45,631 bases of DNA, from the NCBI GenBank assembly GCA_017532145.1, contig JAFXJR010000018.1, positions 1-45,631 of the forward strand, written 5' to 3'. This DNA comes from Lachnospiraceae bacterium. Lineage in GTDB: Bacteria; Bacillota; Clostridia; Lachnospirales; Lachnospiraceae. The notes under the pieces are model-generated. The model did not search any database and had not been told where the DNA came from. It saw only the letters and a list, made by a program, of their open reading frames with translations. How positions within the stretch are numbered: the stretch's first letter is position 1; the number at the start of each line of letters is the position of its first letter. The translations under genes and the position numbers were made by a program. Below, piece after piece: positions 189-24,837 of this stretch.

Positions 189-494
189 TCATAATTCCTG
201 GATATACCTTAAAATCGCTTGTATACTGTCCATTTGGCTTTCATCAAACAACTGCATCACTTCTAATAGCTTTTCATCCTGCCCTGTAGGTTTTTCTCCC
301 ATAAGTATATAGTCACTGTCTACCTTTAGAGCCTTACATATATTATAGAGAACTGCGGCAGAAAATCCCCGTCTTCCAGTTTCTATTTCATATAAAAATT
401 TAGGAGTAATGGAGGCCATTTTAGATAAGGTCTCCCTTGTATACCCCTGTGAAATCCGTATTTGCAAAATCCGTTCTCCTACTTCTTTATACAT
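189..494 (-). CDS. XRE-family HTH transcriptional regulator
   Basis: Small DNA-binding regulator of about 101 residues. Residues from about 5 to 65 form an XRE/Cro helix-turn-helix (GERILQIRISQGYTRETLSK, then an ITPKFLYEIETGRR recognition region), followed by the SDYILMGE segment common in Clostridia XRE proteins and a short helical tail. An in-frame ATG at 512 is possible. The ATG at 494 is preferred because AGAGAGG sits 6 nt before it. The gene diverges from agrB, and the shared intergenic region carries LytTR-type sites facing both ways, so it is inferred to belong to the peptide-signalling regulon. It resembles the second XRE gene at 3614-4033 in layout (SDYILMGE against SDFVLFGE). Target genes are unknown. 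Confidence 0.85.
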   Translation of the reverse strand: MYKEVGERILQIRISQGYTRETLSKMASITPKFLYEIETGRRGFSAAVLYNICKALKVDSDYILMGEKPTGQDEKLLEVMQLFDESQMDSIQAILRYIQEL

Positions 495-521
495 TACCAT
501 CCTCTCTACCATCCTTTATTT

Positions 522-611
522 GTAACTGTTCATTACCCTCACAGTTACATCATTACTACTACGTTTTCCTACGGTCAGCACAGTCAGTGTGCAGACCTAC
601 TGAATAGTTAC
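522..611 (-). repeat. Dispersed ~91-bp palindromic element, copy 1
   Basis: Read on the minus strand, it begins GTAACTATTCAGTAGGTCTG and ends in TAATGAACAGTTAC. The ends are imperfect inverted repeats of about 14 bp. An inner hairpin of the GTCTGCAC...GTGCTGAC type is recognisable but degenerate in this copy. The element lies in the inferred 5' leader of the XRE gene. Related copies are at 7719, 9508, 11392, 26457 and 30813. Confidence 0.85.
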
Positions 612-693
612 CTTTGTCTAATATTTATTGTAGCCTGATTAGTTATGCAGGCACTAATCTTTCTATTATATCAGAATTTTTCATTTTTCCACA

Positions 694-829
694 TTTTTGT
701 ACTCAACTGTTAAAAACTCGTCCTGAACTATATTTTTTTACCCAAAAATGATAAAAAAATACAGTTCAGGACGAAAATAACACGGTTGAGTACAAAAAAA
801 TCAATTTCGGGATTTTTTGAGTTATAATC
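694..829. promoter_or_regulatory. Divergent LytTR-type operator and promoters (agrB / XRE)
   Basis: A 105-bp imperfect palindrome (694-798): inner stem 719-740 with 752-773, one mismatch; outer stem 694-707 with 785-798, perfect. On the plus strand ACAGTTCAG (761-769) and ACGGTTGAG (782-790) start 21 bp apart. On the minus strand ATAGTTCAG (731-723) and ACAGTTGAG (710-702) also start 21 bp apart. This is the spacing of AgrA/LytTR binding sites (consensus WMMGTTNRK); the 782-790 site differs at position 3. TATAAT lies at 823-828 (plus) and 665-670 (minus), almost mirror-placed about position 746. Neither side has a good -35, as expected for activator-dependent agr promoters. Binding by the LytTR regulator encoded at 2886-3614 is inferred. 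Confidence 0.7.
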
Positions 830-870
830 AGACTGACCCGGGCAGAAACTGAACAGAATGGAGAAAACAG

Positions 871-1434
871 ATGGAAAACAACAAAATTATGATTGGAGGC
901 AGGGAAATTGAATATTCAGAATACGTCCAAAAAATGAAAGAGTATTATTGGAAATGCTTTTTTTCAGAATTTAGTAAAATATGTATTTTCTTTGTTATCT
1001 TTGCTTTTCTGGGATTGATTCCTGAATATCTGATTGCACTCTTATGCCTGATGCCCTTAAGAAGTCATGGAGGAGGGCTACACTTTAACCATTATATCAG
1101 CTGCCTGGCTGTCAGCTTTTCTTTTCTATCCGGAAGTATTATTCTGGCAGCTAATATAATGCCCCCAAAAGCAGTTATGCTGCCTATCCTTCTGCTCTGT
1201 ATCTTAGCAGGCTATTTCCTGGTGCCAGTCACCTCAGCTAATCGTCCGCCTGCTACTGCTGTGCAGATTCAGAAAAGTAAAAGAACTACTGTTGTTCTTC
1301 TGGTATTGTTTTTTGCGTTGGTGTGCATCTGTCCTGCTAATGGTTGGATTTATATTGGTTATTGGACAGTTATATTGCATATAGTACAGCTTGCGATTGC
1401 CCGTGGAGGGAAGGAGGTGAAGAGGAATGTTTAA
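871..1434 (+). CDS. agrB: AgrB-like peptide-processing membrane protease
   Basis: Accessory gene regulator B family, 187 residues. These integral membrane cysteine endopeptidases cut the C-terminal tail from AgrD and form the (thio)lactone ring. The motif R64-SHGGGL-H71 followed by C78 reproduces the His/Cys pair of S. aureus AgrB (H77 and C84) with the same 7-residue spacing. Hydrophobic segments lie near residues 36-62, 78-95, 100-118 and 138-178, and an NRP motif sits at about 123. The ATG at 871 follows GGAG about 8 nt upstream. The stop overlaps the agrD start (ATGTTTAA), so the two are translationally coupled. Transcription is inferred from the 823-828 promoter under LytTR control. The family call is firm; the substrate is inferred from position. 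Confidence 0.93.
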   Translation: MENNKIMIGGREIEYSEYVQKMKEYYWKCFFSEFSKICIFFVIFAFLGLIPEYLIALLCLMPLRSHGGGLHFNHYISCLAVSFSFLSGSIILAANIMPPKAVMLPILLLCILAGYFLVPVTSANRPPATAVQIQKSKRTTVVLLVLFFALVCICPANGWIYIGYWTVILHIVQLAIARGGKEVKRNV

Positions 1435-1510
1435 CTGGGGATGCAGATTTGATTTTGTTAGTATTGTCTTTTTTGGAGAACCTAAACACCCTTTTTTAGA
1501 AAAAAAATAA
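1427..1510 (+). CDS. agrD: AgrD-like autoinducer precursor peptide, 27 aa
   Basis: Short gene overlapping the end of agrB by 8 nt, with a strong AAGGAGG 9 nt before its ATG. An in-frame TGA at 1418-1420 fixes this start. The product reads MFNWGCRFDFV, then SIVFF (residues 12-16), then GEPKHPFLEKK. The tail closely matches Listeria AgrD, in which the ring CFMFV is followed by YEPKSPFVK. The ring position therefore carries Ser12, predicting a Ser12-Phe16 lactone like the Ser-lactone peptide of Staphylococcus intermedius, whose ring is STGFF. The leader is only about 11 residues and lacks the usual long amphipathic helix. Cys6 gives an alternative ring, CRFDF, but it is far from the tail. Chemistry and activity are inferred. 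Confidence 0.8.
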   Translation: MFNWGCRFDFVSIVFFGEPKHPFLEKK

Positions 1511-1519
1511 AATAAAAAA

Positions 1520-1616
1520 GGAGCTGTTGCAAAATAAAATTTCTCTACAATATATAGTATGATTTTCTTTGAATCAATTCTATATGTTGCAGGAAATCTT
1601 TATTTTGCGACAGCCC
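1520..1616. mobile_element. 97-bp MITE-like palindromic element, copy A
   Basis: Begins GGAGCTGTTGCAAAATAAA and ends TTTATTTTGCGACAGCCC, with imperfect terminal inverted repeats over most of its length and no coding capacity. The GGGGCTGTCGCAAAAT-type terminus resembles the ends of IS1182/ISL3-like elements of Firmicutes. It sits between the convergent agrD stop (1510) and kinase stop (1619-1621), where it could fold into a two-way terminator. Copy B is at 4470-4565. Confidence 0.8.
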
Positions 1617-1618
1617 AT

Positions 1619-2893
1619 TTACTTTATAATCTCTATCATAAAATTAATCCAATTATCTTCATTAATTATGGAATTAAATACTTTCATTTCTACATTATAC
1701 TTTTTTATGAGTTCCTTAACCCTTGCTAAACCTATTCCTCTTCCCTCACCTTTACTACTGTATCCGCAAACAAACATTTTTTCAATTTCTGAAAATGTAA
1801 CATATTTAGTCGGATTAGCAACCATAATTATTATTTTCTCATCTTCTTCCTTAAATCCTAAGTATACTTGTTTATTAACACATATCTGTCCATTAATACT
1901 TTCACAAGCATTATCAATTAATATTCCTAAAATTTCTACTATTTCATGTAGTGCAAATGAACAAGCAGCTTGCCTAATATGAATATTATAGTCAATACTG
2001 ATACCTTGGTTTTCACAAGAAATACATTTGTGATATATATATCCAGCTAAAATAGTATTATCACATCCTGTTAAAATAGAATCAAATTTACAATCAAGTT
2101 GTAAAACATCTCCATATTCTTTCTGCATCTGTACCAATTCTTCTAAACTTCGAGCAGTTAGATGCATACTATAAATAGCACTTAATTGATTTCTATAATC
2201 ATGTTGCCTTCTTCTAATTTCTGAAAGCAATTTTTCATATGTACTACCATAAATCTTTTGTAATTCTATTTCATAATTTTTCTTTTCAATCTCAATTTCA
2301 GCTTGTCCAAGCCTACCCATATAAAAAATCATAAATACCAAAAACGCTAAAATACATACCGAATATACGTTTAACTTACTTTTATTTAAGTAGTAGTCTA
2401 CTAACAGACCAACAAAAGCTAACCCATATAATATACCCACTACAAACATTTCATTATCTCTTTTTATTATTCTCATTGTATCCAGAAATAAAAGAATTTT
2501 TCTAATAAAATATGAAAAAATTAATGCGATAAAACTTGACAAAGCCAAAATAAATAATGAATTATCTGTATCTCTAAACCCATTTGTGATACATGCTACT
2601 ATCCCTTGTATACATCCTACTAAAGAAAATCCGATAATTAATCTTATAATTGTTTTTTTAACTGTACACCCAAATTTAAAATAACAATACATATATATCA
2701 CCACATAAAAGAGACAGGAACAAATAATGGGAATAAGCTTTAAGTTAATACCTAAATATATCACAAAGTCCGCCAAAATAAGACCGACTAAATATCTATC
2801 AAACTCTAACTCCTGTTTAAATGCACTTTGCAGACATTGCAAAAGCATAAATAATTCCGTCAATAAAATAAATATGGCTAATATCTCATTCAT
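1619..2893 (-). CDS. agrC: AgrC-like GHKL sensor histidine kinase
   Basis: Membrane sensor kinase of 424 residues, likely receptor for the peptide made by the convergent agrBD genes. The N-terminal ~195 residues contain about six hydrophobic segments (near 3-20, 36-70, 80-102, 112-136, 148-167, 176-192). The cytoplasmic part carries an H-box with H231 in HDYRNQ, an N-box with N328 in LIDNACESING, and a G-box GRGIGLA at 384-390, typical of the HPK10/AgrC GHKL class. Its start overlaps the response regulator stop by 8 nt, so it is the last gene of an XRE-RR-HK operon. The gene is more AT-rich than the polysaccharide genes to the right. Ligand assignment is inferred from context. Confidence 0.92.
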   Translation of the reverse strand: MNEILAIFILLTELFMLLQCLQSAFKQELEFDRYLVGLILADFVIYLGINLKLIPIICSCLFYVVIYMYCYFKFGCTVKKTIIRLIIGFSLVGCIQGIVACITNGFRDTDNSLFILALSSFIALIFSYFIRKILLFLDTMRIIKRDNEMFVVGILYGLAFVGLLVDYYLNKSKLNVYSVCILAFLVFMIFYMGRLGQAEIEIEKKNYEIELQKIYGSTYEKLLSEIRRRQHDYRNQLSAIYSMHLTARSLEELVQMQKEYGDVLQLDCKFDSILTGCDNTILAGYIYHKCISCENQGISIDYNIHIRQAACSFALHEIVEILGILIDNACESINGQICVNKQVYLGFKEEDEKIIIMVANPTKYVTFSEIEKMFVCGYSSKGEGRGIGLARVKELIKKYNVEMKVFNSIINEDNWINFMIEIIK

Positions 2894-3614
2894 TTTCCAT
2901 TCTGTGCTTAAATAACTTTTTCATCACAATCCCAATCTGTACTGGGGTGTCTATGTATCTCATTTTAATAATACGATTGCTATAGTCTATCCGTTCAATA
3001 TATCTTTTGTTAACAATACAATATCTGCTGCATTGAATAAAGAAGTCAGAATCCAGTTTATCCATAATTTCCTCACAGGTACTGTAGGGTACCTGATACT
3101 CATCATGCCTGCAATATATTTTCATTTGCCGTCTAGCACATTCTATATAGATAATATCCTTAGTGTATGCAGAATACACAACCCCTTCTTTCCGAAAATA
3201 AACGTATTTGTCGTCACCATCCTTTAAAGGAAATTCTAATGCTTCTCTAATGATGTCCCTTATATGCTCCTCCTCAAATGGCTTTTCAATATAACTAAAA
3301 CAACGTAATTGAGTATAGGAATATAATTCAGGATCTTCTAATGATGTGAGAAAGATTAACGGCGTAAATTTATACTCAGTAATTTCTCGTATTTTTCTTG
3401 CAAAATCTAAGCCTGCTACATCCCCAGGATTGAGTGGATCCAACACAATATCGATAATGAATAAATGAATATGGAACTTTAATACCAGTTGAGAAGCCTC
3501 TGCAATATTACTGGCACAATATATCTGTATATCTATAGGCATTTTTTCTATTATGCTGCAAAGAGCATCACTATGAGGCTTTTGATCTTCGATTATCAGT
3601 ATTCTCTGCAACAT
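2886..3614 (-). CDS. agrA: LytTR-family response regulator (AgrA-like)
   Basis: Response regulator of 242 residues. The receiver domain (about 1-125) has the acidic pair E9/D10, phosphoacceptor D55 in LFIIDIVLD and the EKPFEE lysine near 112. The C-terminal LytTR DNA-binding domain (about 140-240) includes IIYIECARRQMKIYC, FFIQCSRYCIVNKRYIERI and a closing MKKLFKHR. LytTR proteins bind paired 9-bp sites about 21 bp apart, and such pairs occur at 702-790 beside agrB. The ATG overlaps the stop of the upstream XRE gene (TAATG), and its own end overlaps the kinase start, so the operon is tightly coupled. Family assignment is secure; target assignment is inferred. Confidence 0.92.
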   Translation of the reverse strand: MLQRILIIEDQKPHSDALCSIIEKMPIDIQIYCASNIAEASQLVLKFHIHLFIIDIVLDPLNPGDVAGLDFARKIREITEYKFTPLIFLTSLEDPELYSYTQLRCFSYIEKPFEEEHIRDIIREALEFPLKDGDDKYVYFRKEGVVYSAYTKDIIYIECARRQMKIYCRHDEYQVPYSTCEEIMDKLDSDFFIQCSRYCIVNKRYIERIDYSNRIIKMRYIDTPVQIGIVMKKLFKHRMENE

Positions 3615-4033
3615 TATTCTTCTCCATAACCCTGCAGTCTGTTGACCAGCTTTAAGATTTCCTTATCCTCCTCTAACTGATCTTCCTTGAGTGAAAAGGT
3701 AAGCTTCTTAGTCTTTGTAAAATAGGCCAACAATCTCAACATCAAAAACAGCTTGTCTGTCTCTGTACAGTTTGACACGGTTTGCCATGCTTCATCCAAT
3801 CCCTGATTTTCTCCAAACAATACAAAATCTGAAGAAACATTCATTTTTTTATGTAGATTTTTAAGACATGATATGGAGATTTGATTTTCTCCACTCTCTA
3901 CCTTTTTATATGCTGACAATGATATATCCATAATTTCTGCAAAACACTCCTGTGTCAATCCGGCATTTTCACGAATTTGGCGTAGCCTTAAGGCAGATTG
4001 CATCCTTTCCTTGGCGGAATCCTTTTTATTCAT
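3614..4033 (-). CDS. XRE-family HTH regulator heading the kinase operon
   Basis: Protein of 139 residues with an XRE helix-turn-helix at about 14-75 (LRLRQIRENAGLTQECFAEI, then SAYKKVESGENQISISCLKNL), then SDFVLFGE and a ~60-residue helical C-terminal region rich in Lys and Glu. GGAGG lies about 9 nt before the ATG at 4033. It overlaps the LytTR regulator by one base, so it is the first gene of a three-gene operon with the two-component pair. It may regulate the operon itself or link it to another signal; no operator could be identified. Its layout matches the XRE protein at 189-494. Confidence 0.88.
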   Translation of the reverse strand: MNKKDSAKERMQSALRLRQIRENAGLTQECFAEIMDISLSAYKKVESGENQISISCLKNLHKKMNVSSDFVLFGENQGLDEAWQTVSNCTETDKLFLMLRLLAYFTKTKKLTFSLKEDQLEEDKEILKLVNRLQGYGEE

Positions 4034-4469
4034 GGGCTATATCCTCCGTTGCAAGATTATAGTCCAAAATATTCTATACATATTTTTATTGTTTAGACAG
4101 CCCTTAATAATATATTTTAAGTATATTACAAAGGTCTGTTGTGTTTTGTATATTGTGTTCTTAGGCATTGCATTTGCACATATTGTGTTTGCACTTGGAG
4201 ATGCTTGAAGTGGAGACTTCCTTGATTCGATTAACATATATCCATCTTTTATCTTTCTATTCCCTACTTGGTTTATATGATTTTCAAGATATGCTCAGGC
4301 AACATATATAATCTTTACATTATTTATTGCTGTTCAGTACTTCCACAGTTACCATTGTTTTACTATTTGGCACTCTCTATAGCTAAAGCAAAGAGGGCTA
4401 TAACACATTTGGATAAAAATCGTAACCGAGTGCCTTTATCACTACAATTTAATATGTTATAAACAAGAA
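4034..4469. other. Gene-poor AT-rich stretch upstream of the XRE-RR-HK operon
   Basis: No credible gene seen. Short open frames here lack ribosome sites and known motifs. It should contain the promoter of the minus-strand operon, but only weak TATA-like matches are visible and no LytTR-type pair. The segment at 4203-4232 (GCTTGAAGT, then GACTTCCTTGATT) resembles the right arm and flank of the hairpin at 32266-32320, suggesting a decayed copy of the same element. Confidence 0.5.
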
Positions 4470-4565
4470 GGGGCTGTCACAAAATAAAAATTTTCTACAA
4501 TATACAGTATTGATTCAAAAAATCATACGATATATGGTGATAAAATTTCATTTTGCGACAGCCCC
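4470..4565. mobile_element. 96-bp MITE-like palindromic element, copy B
   Basis: Terminal inverted repeats GGGGCTGTCACAAAAT and, on the other strand, GGGGCTGTCGCAAAAT; the whole 96 bp is an imperfect palindrome without coding capacity. It lies 18 nt past the stop of the minus-strand endonuclease V gene and may serve as its terminator. It is related to copy A at 1520-1616, so the two copies bracket the XRE-RR-HK operon. Confidence 0.85.
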
Positions 4566-18279: not shown

Positions 18280-21200
18280 TCACTTATATTTATTTTGAAA
18301 GCGGGTCAGCATGGCTGCACACTCTGCTCTGGTCGCTTCCCCCTTAGGGTCTAAGCGATAGGTTTTATCCTCGTTGGGCTTACCGGTAATCATTTCCACA
18401 GCTGTCGCCCACTTCATATAATCCACTGCCCAGCCACTTACACTTTTTGCATCGGTGAAGGTATTCAGTTCCTTCTTGGCACTAATGTCATACTTACACA
18501 CCTTAGCATACTCATATAACATTTTGGCAATCTGCTCTCTGGTAATATTAGTATTAATTCCATAGCTTCCATCCTGAAAACCATCCACAATTCTTTGCTG
18601 ATTTGCCCAGATAATTGCTTTGCTGTACCATGTTCCATCCTTCACATCACTGAATTTACTTTCAAAGGTAACTGCCGGCTCTCCTGCCATTCGGTAAAGC
18701 ACCGTAGCAAACATGGCTCTGGTCAGAGGATGATCCGGCTGAAATAGGGTTGTACCGGAGATACCATTCATAATCCCCTTGTCATAGACATATTTTACAC
18801 TGTCATATTTCCAGTTACCTGAGATAACCGGCACATCTGTGAAGGGGAACTTTTTCTCTGCCGGCTTCTCCTCCAGCTCTCCCATTACCTGATTCAGTTT
18901 GCTGACTGCCTGATTTACCTGTGCCTGAGTAGCTGAAGCCGCCTGAAGTACTGCCTTAGCCTTTGCTACTTCTGTCTGCAGCTTCTGTGCTGAAGCATCC
19001 GTATACTTACCGGAAGCAATAGCTGTCTCAGCTTGAGTAATCAATATTGTCATCTGTGACTTGTCTACGACAGGAATCTCTGCCGGTTTCTCCTCCAGCT
19101 CTCCCATCGCCTGATTCAGTTTGCTGACTGCCTGATTTACCTGTGCCTGAGTGGCTGAAGCCGCCTGAAGTACTGCCTTAGCCTTTGCCACTTCTGTTTG
19201 CAGCTTCTGTGCTGAAGCATCTGTATACTTACCGGAAGCAATAGCTGTTTCAGCACGGGAAACCAGTTCTTTCAGCTGCGTTTTATCCACAGTGGGAGCA
19301 ACGGCTTCCTCTGTCTTTAACGCTTTCTGAGCTGCTTTTAAAGCGTTGTCAGCTGCCTCTGTCTCAGCCTGGGTATAAATATCATTTGCCAGAATCTTCC
19401 TTGCTTCCTGTAAGGAAGTCTCCAATACTTTCCAGCTGTCTGTTGTGTAGTCCTCCTTCTTCAAGGCTTCTGCATCTGCTACTGTTGCTGCCAGTCCGGT
19501 TTTATCTACTGCCAGAGCTGTATTCGCTTCCAGACCTCTGATAAAGCAAGCATCTGCCCATTCAGAATGGTCATATCCATTGCTGCCTTCTGCATCCACA
19601 ATTAACTTTATTTCTCCTGCACCGGTAACATCCACACTTACAAACTGCATCGGTGTTTTTGCACCTGTTACCTCTCCCAGTACGGCTTCGGAATCCCACT
19701 GCTTTACTCCATCTACCCATACCTGGAAGCTGACGCTACTCTGGTTAGTGTTATACTGTACATAATCTATTCCTGTGTATGCCTGGAAAGCGGTAAATCG
19801 GTGTCCTTCCTCCAGAGTATAGACAATGGTGGAAGCTGCGTGAGCTCCGATTCCCTTGTCAAATACTACCTTATTTCCATTTTCATCAGGCAGGGAAATC
19901 TTGCTGCTACCATTCACATTGCAATCCAGCTGAATGGTTCCATATCCTACCTGTACCGTAGTACTGGTAATTCCTTCCTTAGTATTCTCTGCAATGACAT
20001 CACTGGCATATACCAGTCCCTTGGCAGGCACTTCCAACACATAGGTATTTACCGTATTTCCATCGGCAGAAGTTACCTCCACGATAATACGATTCTCCCC
20101 TTCATACAGCGTAAATTCATGAGTCAGACTGCCCTTTGCCCTCTCTGTCCTCTGTACACCTCCTGCCAGACTCATACGGATACCCGCCTCTGGCATCTGA
20201 GCTGTAGCCGTTACCTGCAGCTTGCCTACCGTATTCATCCCCAGTGTGTACTCATTAGTGTCCGGTGTAAAAGCTGATCCAAATCCGGAATCTGTAGTTA
20301 GGGTGAGTAAATCTGCATTATTCTCACTGTCAATAATTACATTCAGGGTGTAAAAATGCTTGGACCACATATTCTTCGCCACATTCGCTACTACAATTTT
20401 ATTCAAATTGTCTGTTAAGGCAAAGGCAGCCTGATTGCCTTCCACCCGCTTTCCTGCATAAGTAATACTGGTCTGCTGTCCCTCTTTGGAGGAGGTGGTA
20501 ATCTGCAGATTTTCAGCCTGCTGTGCGGTCACATGGACAGTATATTCCTCTATGGAAGGGTCAAAGCCCTCGATTGCTGCTCCATTTACGGTAATCCCTG
20601 TCAGCTCACTGTCTGCATAGCCATCCGCATAAAGATAGAGCTTGGCCTCTCTGGTTGAAATACCATCAGCAGCCGTAATATAGATATAGTAGGCATTAAT
20701 GCCTGCTGTCATAGTAATATCTGTCTCCACCCTATTGGTGTCCACATTTGCTACCTCATGTTCAAAATAAGAACGTGTCACTCTCAATACGCTTCCAGGA
20801 GAAGTTTCTATCACTAAAGGTAACACATCCGTATTGTCTTCTACATGGACAAACCAGCTGTCTGTACCTTCTTGTATTTCCTCCTGTAAATTCACCGCCT
20901 GTCCTCCTACAGAAAGAGAGATAACTGCATTGTCACTGCTTCCCACCCTGCTTACCTTCAGGGTATAGGTCAGTGTACCGCGGGTAATCGTGTAGGTATC
21001 TGCCACAGCCACCACTGCACTGTTTGAGCCAACAGCGATAGAAACCGTTTCATTTCCAGTAATGACAGTTTCTATATTGGCATCTGCCTTCCCATAGGAA
21101 ATCCTTATTTTTTCCACATCATCCGGAATATACACCTGATGAGTACTTCCTGCTGTCAGTCCCTCTACGGCATAACCGTTAACATACAGCTTATCCAATG

Positions 21201-24200
21201 CCTGATCGGTCTGGGTAGCAGTGGCAACTGTCTTCTTTTCCTCACTGGTAAAAAGCTGACTGGGCTTATGATGTTGGTCATAGGCAATTACAGCCACACT
21301 CAAACTGCCCTCCTTAGCCGGAACATAGCTTGCCTGTCTGGTATAGGCAGTTTCCACTGTTCCGTCTGCTGCTTCCAGCGTCCACTGATACAAATAGGAG
21401 GAAATATTTCCATCCGTATCTGCTGCCTGAGCATTTACGGTTACTGCTGTTCCCACCTTTAAGTCGGTTCCCTGAATAATGGCTGAAGTCACTGCAGGTC
21501 TTTCATTCTCTACAGAGGTAAATAAGGTTTGGGAAGCCAATTCCTTCAGTTCTTCTCTGCTGGTTTCCGAAGCCTTAGCCATACGGATATTGCTGTATAC
21601 AGGAGCAAAGCTTGCTCCACCATTTAACCAGGAGACCAATCCCAGCTTCATCGCTCCATCCTGCAGGTGAGAAACAGCAAATTCTCCCCCTCTCTGCCAG
21701 CTTCCATTATCATCCAGATAGCTTACCACTGCCCTTCCATTACTGATGACAAATTCAAAGGTGGTAGCAGTCAAACTATTGTCAGAGGCGTTTCCTGCAG
21801 CCTCCGTACAATTTTCTGCTATCTCCAACATGGTGGAAACTCCAGAAAAGTGGTTACGCTTTCCTACAAACAGATAATTATCCAAATCCTCAAAGAGCAT
21901 TACACCGCTGCTGTTATAGCCGCTGCCTTTTTCTACCAGTCCCTGTGCATCTATATGTAGGATAAGGTCATTTTTCATTTCCTCCGGAATATCCAGGTTA
22001 ACTATATTATTTACCAGGCGACTGCTGGTGTAGATACCATTCCCATTGGACTGAGGTGTAATCTGGACTGTATCCTCCCACAGAGCCAGAACACCGCCTT
22101 CTGTTGACTCCAGTACATTGACTCCCTGTGCCAATGTACTTGCAGTATTATAGCTCACTCCAAAGCTGTTCACCATTAACAGCTGATCGGTTTCTCCATT
22201 GGCAGCCGTAGCCTTAAGCAACACTGCTCCATCCTTTTTCGCGGTGTAGGTATTGCCGGATATTCTTCCCTTGTCACTGGTCTTACCTGTTAAGGGATCC
22301 AACAGTTGATAGGTTGCTGTTGTTCCAGTCGGTATAGTCAACTGAGTAGTTTCATCCTTATTCTCAAAGAAGGTATCGGCAGCTGTCAGGGTAAAGGTTC
22401 TTCCTGCTCCCTCTCCTACTGTTACCTGTACCGGATTACTACGAATCAAGGCACCATTCTTTTCAATATAAGCCTGTACTGTAGTAGTTCCTGCCTTTAC
22501 CCCCACCAGTTTTCCAGCTTCGTCAATATAAGCCACCTCTGGGGTACTGCTGACCAGCTGTACCTTGGATGCACTGGTCACTCGATTGCTTCCTCCATTC
22601 ACCGTAAGCACTTCCTGCTCTGTCTCTCCCAGAGTCAGGTCATCGGCTGACATTCTGGAGTCCAGACGGATATTCAGATTCATGCCCTCATCATAGGTAT
22701 TTCCTGATACGGTAACGTTGCTGCAGTCATTAAATTGGAAAACATCCTTTGTCAGCATGGTCTCTCCCACTGTTACCATGATATCCTGAGTTTTTCCTAT
22801 CGCTAATTCATTCTTGGTATCCAGACTAAGAACAAGGTCATCCTCATGAATAATCGTGTTGTTTGTAATGGTCAGCCCATCCACTCTGTTGGCTGTTACT
22901 ACATTGTCGTTAGATAGGTAAAAGGTATTTTCGGTAATGGTAATATTTTCATGTACCAGAGTGGCCGGATTCTTCTGCTCTCCGCCACTGCTTGCCGAAA
23001 CAGTAATCGGTTCGATAAAGATACCGGATACAGTTCCCACTGCCGCCTGTCCTGTAGGACGGATGTAGAAGGTATTGTTTCTAATCGTCAGATTACGGAT
23101 AGGACCTGATTCATACCAATAATCCGCATCATTGGATAGATAGATATTAGCCATAGCCATATTATCAAAAATATTATCTTCAATAATTACCGGCTTTCTG
23201 GTTGTGCAAAGAATACCTCTGGTGGGAATACTCTTCATCAGATTGCCTTTAATCGTCACCTCCGGTGTATAGGTAACGTTTTCTGCCACATAAAGAGGCT
23301 GTGTTTCCCGGTTATCTCCAGAGCCTTTAGTAATTGTTGCTTCCAGGTCTGTCAGGGTCTCTGCCGGCAGAGCCTCTGCAAAGGTCACAATCTCTGTAAC
23401 CAAATCCAGCGTACTGCCCTCATACTCCTCTCCAGGACCTATAGAGGAAGCTACGATAAAGGGCTGCTCCTCTACCTGTCCCTCCGGCTCCTCCAGGAAG
23501 GTTCTGGAATAAAATAATACCTCGTCTCCTGTATGGAACTGTCGAAATCCTCCCTGCTGCCCATGAATATATTTTACCTTTACTGTCCTTTCATCGATAA
23601 CCTCTTCCACGCGCATATAGGTTCCATGCACATTGATGGGGTCATCATGAGCCATGGAAAAGTTGCAGTCTGTTACTTTAAAGTAACCGCCACAGCCTGC
23701 CACATGGAGCTGATCTGCATTACTTGTTGTATACTTTCCACTGCCGTCTCTGGGCAGGAAGTCTACTCCCTTAAACTCCACATCTTTACACATCTGTGTC
23801 AGCCAGCCAAATCCACTGAGATAATGAACATCAATATTTTCCACCATTAAATCTTCACTTTCCCAGAAGAAGGCACCTGCTGTCTGTCTCCAGGCTGAAT
23901 TACTGAGCTGGTAGATATTTCCCTCCACAATATCCGTAGGAAGGGCAGATTCATAGGTAAAACGAACAGTGGAGGTTCCTGAAGGAGCAATATTCTCCAC
24001 CCCGGTAAAGGGATTGGAGGCTTCCTTATTATTAGCCCGGATTACCGTACGGTCATATCCCTTGTAAACTACCAGATAGGCACAAAAATCTGCATCATTC
24101 CAAGTCCAATAGGGTCTTCCTGTTTCCTCACTGATTTCTCCCTGCCACTGAATATGCTTTTTATCTGCCGAAATCTCATAATGATAGGCCTCAGGAATAA

Positions 24201-24738
24201 AGATGTCTGCATAGGGCTTATTGGTCACCTCATCAATACCTGTCCTCACAATGGACACATCAATAGTGTCTGCATCCTTGTAATCCAACACCAGATTCTG
24301 CATTTTAATATTTGTACTTTCCACCACAGCCAGAGCCATAATGTCACCATACACCAACAGCGTAGAATCATTCCCCTCTATCGTCAGATTATCCACCTCT
24401 TCCAAAAGAATAGCTATCTTCTTTTCCGGATAACTGCGGCTGGAGGTATTGGAGGTATGATAAACACGAGTAGAGGCATGCTCCTTGTCAAAACGATACT
24501 CTCCATAGGGGAAATTCAGGATTTTCTCTCCCTCTATGGTCTTTGCTTCCTCCAATGCCTCCATAACAGCCTCTGTACTGTCATACTTACCACTGGGATC
24601 TGCCCCATAGTCTGTTACATCAATAACCGTTCCCTGTACTGCTTCTTCTGCCTGTACCGCCCAAGGTGGAGACCCCAGATTCACCAAAGAAGCTGCAAGA
24701 GCTATCGACAATAATCTTTTGCCAAGGTTTTTCCACAT
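18280..24738 (-). CDS. Giant SLH-anchored surface protein with GH110-like beta-helix
   Basis: About 2152 residues from the ATG at 24738 (AAAGGAG 7 nt upstream; the longest frame starts at 24774). Signal peptide near 1-31. Residues ~38-700 form a parallel beta-helix containing NADQLHVAGCGG and HDDPINVHGT (about 340-373), blocks I associate with GH110 alpha-1,3-galactosidases. Then a Big2-like domain (VQLVSSTPEVAYIDEAGKLV), a LamG-like region, Ig and cadherin-like beta-sandwich repeats (LYVNGYAVEGL, ITVNGAAIEGFDPSIEEYTV), an NPCBM module (GTIQLDCNVNGSSKI, GIGAHAASTIVY), three FIVAR repeats, and C-terminal SLH motifs (FTDVP, FSDVKDGTWYSKAI, FTDAKSVSGWA). Probably a wall-attached enzyme acting on host or dietary alpha-galactosyl glycans. 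The GH110 assignment is from motif memory. Confidence 0.82.
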   Translation of the reverse strand: MWKNLGKRLLSIALAASLVNLGSPPWAVQAEEAVQGTVIDVTDYGADPSGKYDSTEAVMEALEEAKTIEGEKILNFPYGEYRFDKEHASTRVYHTSNTSSRSYPEKKIAILLEEVDNLTIEGNDSTLLVYGDIMALAVVESTNIKMQNLVLDYKDADTIDVSIVRTGIDEVTNKPYADIFIPEAYHYEISADKKHIQWQGEISEETGRPYWTWNDADFCAYLVVYKGYDRTVIRANNKEASNPFTGVENIAPSGTSTVRFTYESALPTDIVEGNIYQLSNSAWRQTAGAFFWESEDLMVENIDVHYLSGFGWLTQMCKDVEFKGVDFLPRDGSGKYTTSNADQLHVAGCGGYFKVTDCNFSMAHDDPINVHGTYMRVEEVIDERTVKVKYIHGQQGGFRQFHTGDEVLFYSRTFLEEPEGQVEEQPFIVASSIGPGEEYEGSTLDLVTEIVTFAEALPAETLTDLEATITKGSGDNRETQPLYVAENVTYTPEVTIKGNLMKSIPTRGILCTTRKPVIIEDNIFDNMAMANIYLSNDADYWYESGPIRNLTIRNNTFYIRPTGQAAVGTVSGIFIEPITVSASSGGEQKNPATLVHENITITENTFYLSNDNVVTANRVDGLTITNNTIIHEDDLVLSLDTKNELAIGKTQDIMVTVGETMLTKDVFQFNDCSNVTVSGNTYDEGMNLNIRLDSRMSADDLTLGETEQEVLTVNGGSNRVTSASKVQLVSSTPEVAYIDEAGKLVGVKAGTTTVQAYIEKNGALIRSNPVQVTVGEGAGRTFTLTAADTFFENKDETTQLTIPTGTTATYQLLDPLTGKTSDKGRISGNTYTAKKDGAVLLKATAANGETDQLLMVNSFGVSYNTASTLAQGVNVLESTEGGVLALWEDTVQITPQSNGNGIYTSSRLVNNIVNLDIPEEMKNDLILHIDAQGLVEKGSGYNSSGVMLFEDLDNYLFVGKRNHFSGVSTMLEIAENCTEAAGNASDNSLTATTFEFVISNGRAVVSYLDDNGSWQRGGEFAVSHLQDGAMKLGLVSWLNGGASFAPVYSNIRMAKASETSREELKELASQTLFTSVENERPAVTSAIIQGTDLKVGTAVTVNAQAADTDGNISSYLYQWTLEAADGTVETAYTRQASYVPAKEGSLSVAVIAYDQHHKPSQLFTSEEKKTVATATQTDQALDKLYVNGYAVEGLTAGSTHQVYIPDDVEKIRISYGKADANIETVITGNETVSIAVGSNSAVVAVADTYTITRGTLTYTLKVSRVGSSDNAVISLSVGGQAVNLQEEIQEGTDSWFVHVEDNTDVLPLVIETSPGSVLRVTRSYFEHEVANVDTNRVETDITMTAGINAYYIYITAADGISTREAKLYLYADGYADSELTGITVNGAAIEGFDPSIEEYTVHVTAQQAENLQITTSSKEGQQTSITYAGKRVEGNQAAFALTDNLNKIVVANVAKNMWSKHFYTLNVIIDSENNADLLTLTTDSGFGSAFTPDTNEYTLGMNTVGKLQVTATAQMPEAGIRMSLAGGVQRTERAKGSLTHEFTLYEGENRIIVEVTSADGNTVNTYVLEVPAKGLVYASDVIAENTKEGITSTTVQVGYGTIQLDCNVNGSSKISLPDENGNKVVFDKGIGAHAASTIVYTLEEGHRFTAFQAYTGIDYVQYNTNQSSVSFQVWVDGVKQWDSEAVLGEVTGAKTPMQFVSVDVTGAGEIKLIVDAEGSNGYDHSEWADACFIRGLEANTALAVDKTGLAATVADAEALKKEDYTTDSWKVLETSLQEARKILANDIYTQAETEAADNALKAAQKALKTEEAVAPTVDKTQLKELVSRAETAIASGKYTDASAQKLQTEVAKAKAVLQAASATQAQVNQAVSKLNQAMGELEEKPAEIPVVDKSQMTILITQAETAIASGKYTDASAQKLQTEVAKAKAVLQAASATQAQVNQAVSKLNQVMGELEEKPAEKKFPFTDVPVISGNWKYDSVKYVYDKGIMNGISGTTLFQPDHPLTRAMFATVLYRMAGEPAVTFESKFSDVKDGTWYSKAIIWANQQRIVDGFQDGSYGINTNITREQIAKMLYEYAKVCKYDISAKKELNTFTDAKSVSGWAVDYMKWATAVEMITGKPNEDKTYRLDPKGEATRAECAAMLTRFQNKYK
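18857..19304 (-). repeat. Tandem 222-bp duplication encoding FIVAR repeats
   Basis: Two adjacent copies, offset by 222 bp (74 codons; for example 18861 and 19083), are nearly identical. Both encode ETAIASGKYTDASAQKLQTE, then VAKAKAVLQAASATQAQVNQ. A third, older repeat lies further upstream in the protein. The near identity suggests a recent duplication, likely tuning stalk length between the catalytic region and the SLH anchor. Confidence 0.85.
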
Positions 24739-24837
24739 GTTTTTTCTCCTTTCATTTGTCCATGCTTTAGCCATTTTCAGACATACCCTTACCCATAATG
24801 GAGTAACCCCCTCCCTGACAGGTATAGTGGTGCTGCA

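Follow-up and report, generated by a model that had tools for sequence, protein, structure and literature searches.

We found that the open reading frame at 1427-1510 of the analysed stretch of DNA (45,631 nucleotides; the window) very probably encodes an AgrD precursor, part of an agr system that is complete and probably self-activating, and the predicted product is the serine lactone SIVFF. Assignment of this frame to the AgrD type, with a serine in the ring position and an exceptionally short leader, within a complete agr locus, is well supported by comparison with related loci. A draft assembly of 2.6 Mb (134 contigs, 87% complete), probably metagenomic, contains the window as its contig C111, and the agr locus lies compactly at the left end of the window, with the following genes and repeat:

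189..512, minus strand: XRE-type regulator (HTH_19), divergent from agrB, a possible output gene
871..1434, plus strand: agrB, membrane peptidase with His71 and Cys78 (PF04647, E 6.2e-27)
1427..1510, plus strand: agrD, 27-residue autoinducing-peptide precursor (ATG at 1427, TAA at 1508-1510, 27 codons)
1517..1620, no strand: long inverted repeat between the convergent ends of agrD and agrC (repeat search)
1619..2893, minus strand: agrC-like sensor kinase of the GHKL type, convergent with agrBD (profile matches, comparison with the related locus L034)
2886..3614, minus strand: agrA-like LytTR response regulator (profile match, comparison with L034)
3614..4033, minus strand: second XRE regulator, its last base coinciding with the first of agrA (profile match, comparison with L034)

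AgrB loci related to the window

AgrB relatives were collected from partial samples of genomes at differing E-value limits. AgrB-positive genomes numbered 5 of 16 in the window genus (at E up to 0.001, own genome included; the other four contain six matches, of 22-28% identity), 22 of 397 in the family and 6 of 392 in the order, and, again at differing limits, 7 of 26, 1 of 2 and 2 of 8 in the genera of the loci L034, L035 and L013, respectively; six contigs and one viral contig were also taken in. With places fetched twice counted once, the sample comprised 46 distinct AgrB loci, 34 of them with an AgrD of the window's type. The remaining 12 (L004-L010, L026, L030, L033, L043 and L073) had no accepted AgrD of this motif; L026 is cut by a contig end, and loose-motif matches at L004, L006, L007, L009 and L073 were discounted as fortuitous or as belonging to a different AgrD type. 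The AgrB tree contained 45 rows, L026 being left out. Ring residues and leader lengths were read manually with starts chosen by the ribosome site, and L035, which has no separate start, was kept outside the lengths. The 34 aligned peptides represent 33 loci, two coming from L066 and none from L035. At L066 a single agrB is followed by two tandem AgrD-like frames, each of which has a ring-position Ser; the second copy stands outside the per-locus counts.

Searches of other collections gave no AgrB relative among plasmids, one in the phage collection (an unannotated record from human faeces) and, at E up to 1, none by sequence in the PDB. The viral contig L040 carries an AgrB relative with a 38-residue AgrD, and a second viral scan together with the tail pattern found nothing further.

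His and Cys are the catalytic residues of S. aureus AgrB. His71 and Cys78 of the window protein, which we take to be its catalytic pair, are present in all 34 AgrBs that accompany this AgrD type. The second AgrB of the window's own genome (L008, contig C31, about 316-873, minus strand) carries Tyr and Ser in place of His and Cys; no AgrD of this type was found alongside it, nor any match to the window kinase in the 2.3 kb there. L008 is a probable dead AgrB, and given that it lacks the His/Cys pair, an adjoining AgrD and a kinase match, it is unlikely to process the window peptide. An AgrD profile search of the genome at E up to 1 returned no second AgrD, the match to the window's own peptide arising by construction.

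The arrangement of the locus recurs among the relatives. At 27 of the 34 loci, the window included, agrD is followed by a convergent gene for an AgrC-like kinase, three of the seven misses having less than 260 bases of downstream sequence, and an XRE relative is divergent from agrB at 13 of 34, again including the window. The second XRE regulator probably belongs to one operon with agrA. L034, the nearest locus found (contig CAMWYM010000005.1, uncultured Clostridium sp.), has all six locus genes in the window's order, with an AgrB 57% identical to that of the window and identities of 54% for AgrC, 58% for AgrA, 60% for the first and 61% for the second XRE regulator.

A 27-codon agrD overlaps the end of agrB

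The product of the window agrD is MFNWGCRFDFV-SIVFF-GEPKHPFLEKK (27 residues), and its parts, with its ribosome-binding site, are as follows:

1412..1417, plus strand: AGGAGG ribosome-binding site, within agrB, nine bases 5' of the agrD ATG
1427..1459, plus strand: leader part MFNWGCRFDFV, residues 1-11 (alignment of relatives' AgrDs)
1460..1474, plus strand: predicted ring SIVFF, residues 12-16, with Ser12 as putative nucleophile (position from the alignment)
1475..1507, plus strand: C-terminal tail GEPKHPFLEKK, residues 17-27, with a PxxP; predicted to be removed by AgrB

The initial annotation had described a small gene overlapping the 3' end of agrB, preceded by a ribosome site and bounded upstream by an in-frame stop, and the gene has exactly this form. 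The 27-codon frame shares 8 nt with agrB (871-1434), and the codons AGG AGG TGA AGA GGA precede its ATG, the in-frame TGA standing at 1418-1420, three codons 5'. In L034 the overlap is likewise 8 nt, and its agrD has a ribosome site and, three codons 5' of the ATG, an in-frame TGA.

In the frames of the window the motif [SC]xxx[FLIVMWYA]GE..P was found once. Dinucleotide-shuffled copies of the window (60) gave it 0.5 times on average and at most twice, and when only the 180 nt surrounding the agrB stop were shuffled, 7 of 5000 shuffles contained it. As the motif can be reached by chance, it is by itself weak evidence for agrD; the call is solid because of the position adjoining agrB and the conservation in L034. 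The L034 AgrD (MSNRGFHFDFISLLFFGEPKHPFLNEE) has exactly 27 residues, is identical to the window peptide at 17 of 27 and is the only other 27-residue precursor among the sampled loci. The tail, on whose conservation the initial reading depended, is kept in L034 as GEPKHPF, and that of the window fits the 33 other aligned peptides, which mostly carry GE[PY]xxP. Within it, P19-K-H-P22 forms a PxxP, described as the AgrB-binding motif (PMC3901668). Against the AgrD models of Pfam (limit E 1) and NCBIfam (limit E 10), the window peptide gave no match. At E up to 1 the AgrD models TIGR04223 and PF05931 matched 4 and 2 of the 34 aligned peptides, respectively, indicating that automatic annotation probably overlooks most of this AgrD group.

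The short leader

A leader of about 11 residues had been noted as shorter than usual, and the relatives confirm this. Among the 33 loci with an assigned start, the median leader length is 27 residues; 24 loci have 23-36 and six have 20-21, L013 has 16, and the window and L034 have 11 each. The window, L034, L035 and L013 form one group in the 45-row AgrB tree (support 98/76, below the starred level), so that the short form falls, within the sample, in a small AgrB clade; because the short-leader loci group together, the leader was probably shortened in this one lineage.

We considered whether the frame might be a decayed AgrD that has lost its leader and its processing. The length of 11 against a median of 27 and the missing library match would suit such a reading, as would L035 of the same clade, where the frame is altered: at 3938-4522 (the same place as L011 and L042) an AgrB without its last helix is followed, with no break in the open frame, by an AgrD-like tail. 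Frame disruption in close relatives, which would speak against the gene, was thus looked at in two relatives, with L034 intact and L035 devoid of a separate agrD start. The metagenome contig carrying L035 ends 29 nt after the stop of the fused frame and, because of this position, the fusion may be natural or an assembly fault. Decay is countered by L034, which keeps the length of the precursor and in which FFGEPKHP (codons 15-22) is unchanged from the window while all eight consecutive codons differ silently. Differences between the two genes fall on 15 of 28 third codon positions, 8 first and 3 second positions, with dN of 0.28 and dS of 1.56 for leader residues 1-11 and dN of 0.085 for residues 12-24, where dS was not computable. 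We therefore regard decay as very unlikely.

Alternatively, the true precursor could be longer, arising through a non-standard start or a frameshift from agrB, in which case the short leader would be just apparent. The 8-nt overlap of the two genes and the single frame of L035 can be cited for this, whereas the in-frame TGA three codons before the ATG, accompanied by a ribosome site in both the window and L034, is at odds with it, and the L035 frame, 29 nt from a contig end, may be an artefact. Such a longer precursor is highly improbable, and we retain the 27-residue product.

N-terminal membrane anchoring of S. aureus AgrD is said, in work of Zhang from 2004, to be required for processing. 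The S. aureus leader has 24-25 residues and is amphipathic (PMC12312760), and a leader of this type is not found in the 11 residues of the window AgrD; we take this as a variant, because the description is one of staphylococci and the relatives span 11-36 residues. The best helical moment was 0.28 for the window leader, 0.10 for L034 and 0.24 for L013, and 0.43-0.55 for three leaders of 27-28 residues; a 21-residue leader also reached 0.28, which makes this comparison a rough one. The 27-residue precursor offers a natural test of the amount of leader that AgrB needs.

Serine in the ring position

Serine at the ring position, normally held by Cys, was part of the initial reading and was upheld: Ser12 stands five residues before GEP and is kept in L034. 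The claim that a serine ring is unusual for such bacteria was not supported by the sampling. Counted five residues before the G of GE, the ring residue is Ser at 27 of the 34 loci with this AgrD type and Cys at 7, indicating that Ser is typical of this AgrD group and no peculiarity of the window. Every one of the 34 loci has Ser or Cys at this position, within a search motif that admitted just S, C, T or M near there, so that other ring residues would escape among the 12 loci without an accepted AgrD. L018 and L021 have a Cys directly before the ring-position Ser and may form a Cys ring instead.

Closure through Cys6, giving a CRFDF thiolactone with Ser12 merely part of the tail, was the alternative left open by the initial annotation and draws on Cys being the usual nucleophile and on the placing of Cys6 five residues before Val11, but it is hardly credible, since L034 retains Ser12 but has Phe at position 6, and the conserved GE context comes after Phe16, with GE (EE in L031) following the ring in the 34 aligned peptides. 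The ring of the window peptide most likely closes through Ser12 to give a SIVFF lactone. Oxygen esters and thioesters are not equally stable and fit a receptor differently. If the pattern holds chemically, lactones would be common among the agr systems of gut-type Lachnospiraceae.

AgrA-type boxes in the putative divergent promoter region

The region between the XRE gene and agrB contains a near-palindrome with 47-nt arms (694-798), and the following elements were recognized there:

665..670, minus strand: TATAAT, possible -10 of the XRE promoter (sequence inspection)
702..731, minus strand: mirror AgrA-type box pair ATAGTTCAG-12-ACAGTTGAG, facing the XRE gene (pattern search)
761..790, plus strand: AgrA-type box pair ACAGTTCAG-12-ACGGTTGAG, upstream of agrB (pattern search)
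823..828, plus strand: TATAAT, possible -10 of the agrB promoter (sequence inspection)

The direct repeats bound by AgrA in S. aureus are separated by a 12-bp spacer. S. aureus AgrA binds ACAGTTAAG (PMC11039898), its sites being two direct repeats centred about -60 at P2 and P3 (PMC4227749), and the window box ACAGTTCAG matches ACAGTTAAG at 8 of 9 positions. Measured from the end of a TATAAT, of which the region has only two, one per strand, the centres of the two box pairs are 52.5 and 51.5 nt away, which would place the pairs near -59, much as at S. aureus P2 and P3, if transcription begins about 7 nt beyond the TATAAT. A promoter scan of the region reported neither TATAAT (823-828, 665-670).

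The single box ACRGTTNAG is found six times in the window, three times in the XRE-agrB region, compared with 1.8 expected, and none of 100 shuffles reached six. The box-pair pattern with up to 3 mismatches gave four matches in the window, a number reached by 3 of 100 shuffles. In the 2.6-Mb genome no pairs match better than the two of the window, which have 0 and 1 mismatch, and four more match at two mismatches; a reversed control pattern gave 22 matches in total at up to 2 mismatches compared with 6 for the real pattern, so that only the two best pairs count. A relaxed pattern, which also misses the minus-strand pair of the window, found no box pair in the corresponding intergenic region of 12 relatives with a divergent XRE gene, among them L034. 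The exact consensus found none in the intergenic regions of three relatives, and a repeat search of six gave no box-like repeats with 21-22 nt spacing. From the placing of the two pairs we infer that AgrA may drive agrBD in one direction and the XRE gene in the other, the XRE gene occupying the place of RNAIII.

Proposed pathway and comparison with known systems

In the pathway that we propose, AgrB would use His71 and Cys78 to cut after Phe16, holding the peptide as an acyl-enzyme before passing it to the Ser12 hydroxyl, so that SIVFF closes into a five-residue lactone. All or part of the 11-residue leader would be cut off and the lactone released. AgrC would sense the lactone and phosphorylate AgrA, which is expected to bind the paired boxes and to fire agrBD and the divergent XRE gene, the candidate output.

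A more far-reaching reading, which as a whole we consider rather doubtful, is that in the short-leader lineage AgrB acts on a leaderless precursor, the leader being no removable membrane anchor. A long-tailed lactone keeping part or all of residues 1-11 (up to MFNWGCRFDFV-[SIVFF]) would then be released and one proteolytic step of the classical pathway lost. More widely, agr signalling in this Lachnospiraceae group would mostly employ serine lactones in place of thiolactones.

The window locus shares with S. aureus agrBDCA the His/Cys pair of AgrB, a precursor adjoining agrB, a five-residue ring (predicted for the window), an AgrC kinase and a LytTR AgrA; its candidate AgrA box pairs resemble those of the divergent promoter region in S. 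aureus (PMC4227749). It differs in having Ser for Cys, a leader of 11 rather than 24-25 residues, agrCA on the opposite strand and an XRE gene in the position of RNAIII. Reviews single out S. pseudintermedius and E. faecalis as lactone exceptions to thiolactones (PMC3673130, PMC12312760). As in the window, the S. pseudintermedius/intermedius peptide has a five-residue ring predicted to be closed through Ser (PMC3673130), although bacterial family, ring sequence and precursor length are different. The Enterococcus faecalis FsrB/FsrD system (GBAP) resembles our proposal in combining an AgrB-type enzyme with a Ser lactone, and departs from it in its nine-residue ring (PMC12312760) and in the location of fsrD inside fsrB (PMC3673130). 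The longer AgrDs of the relatives (L012-L069), a few of which match TIGR04223 or PF05931, share in most cases the core [SC]xxx[FL]GE[PY]xxP, and they resemble the window in having a frame overlapping or close behind agrB and, for the most part, a convergent kinase; unlike the window, they have leaders of 16-36 residues, and Cys stands at the ring position at 7 of the 34 loci.

Genes for cyclic lactone autoinducers are noted for one Lachnospiraceae genome in a paper of 2024, which uses neither the word AgrD nor the word serine (PMC11352710). No description of serine AgrDs in Lachnospiraceae was found in the titles and abstract openings of the open-access papers among the matches listed, which, as it covers open-access papers only, is weak evidence of novelty.

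Other features of the window

A second inverted repeat, at 4470-4565, resembles that at 1517-1620. The right ends of both are TTTTGCGACAGCCC, one lies on each side of the kinase operon, and the two look like a small mobile repeat. Positions 1-141, at the contig start, are a dispersed repeat with at least 40 long matches in the window's own genome (40 of 73 candidates scored) and 29 short inverted ones. Beside the agr locus, the stretch 11519-43994 is, judged by its gene content, a surface polysaccharide region: many of the 20 frames scanned there are glycosyltransferase, sugar transferase, LytR-CpsA-Psr, ABC/Wzt or nucleotide-sugar genes. An S-layer-homology protein of 2164 residues is encoded at 18280-24774.
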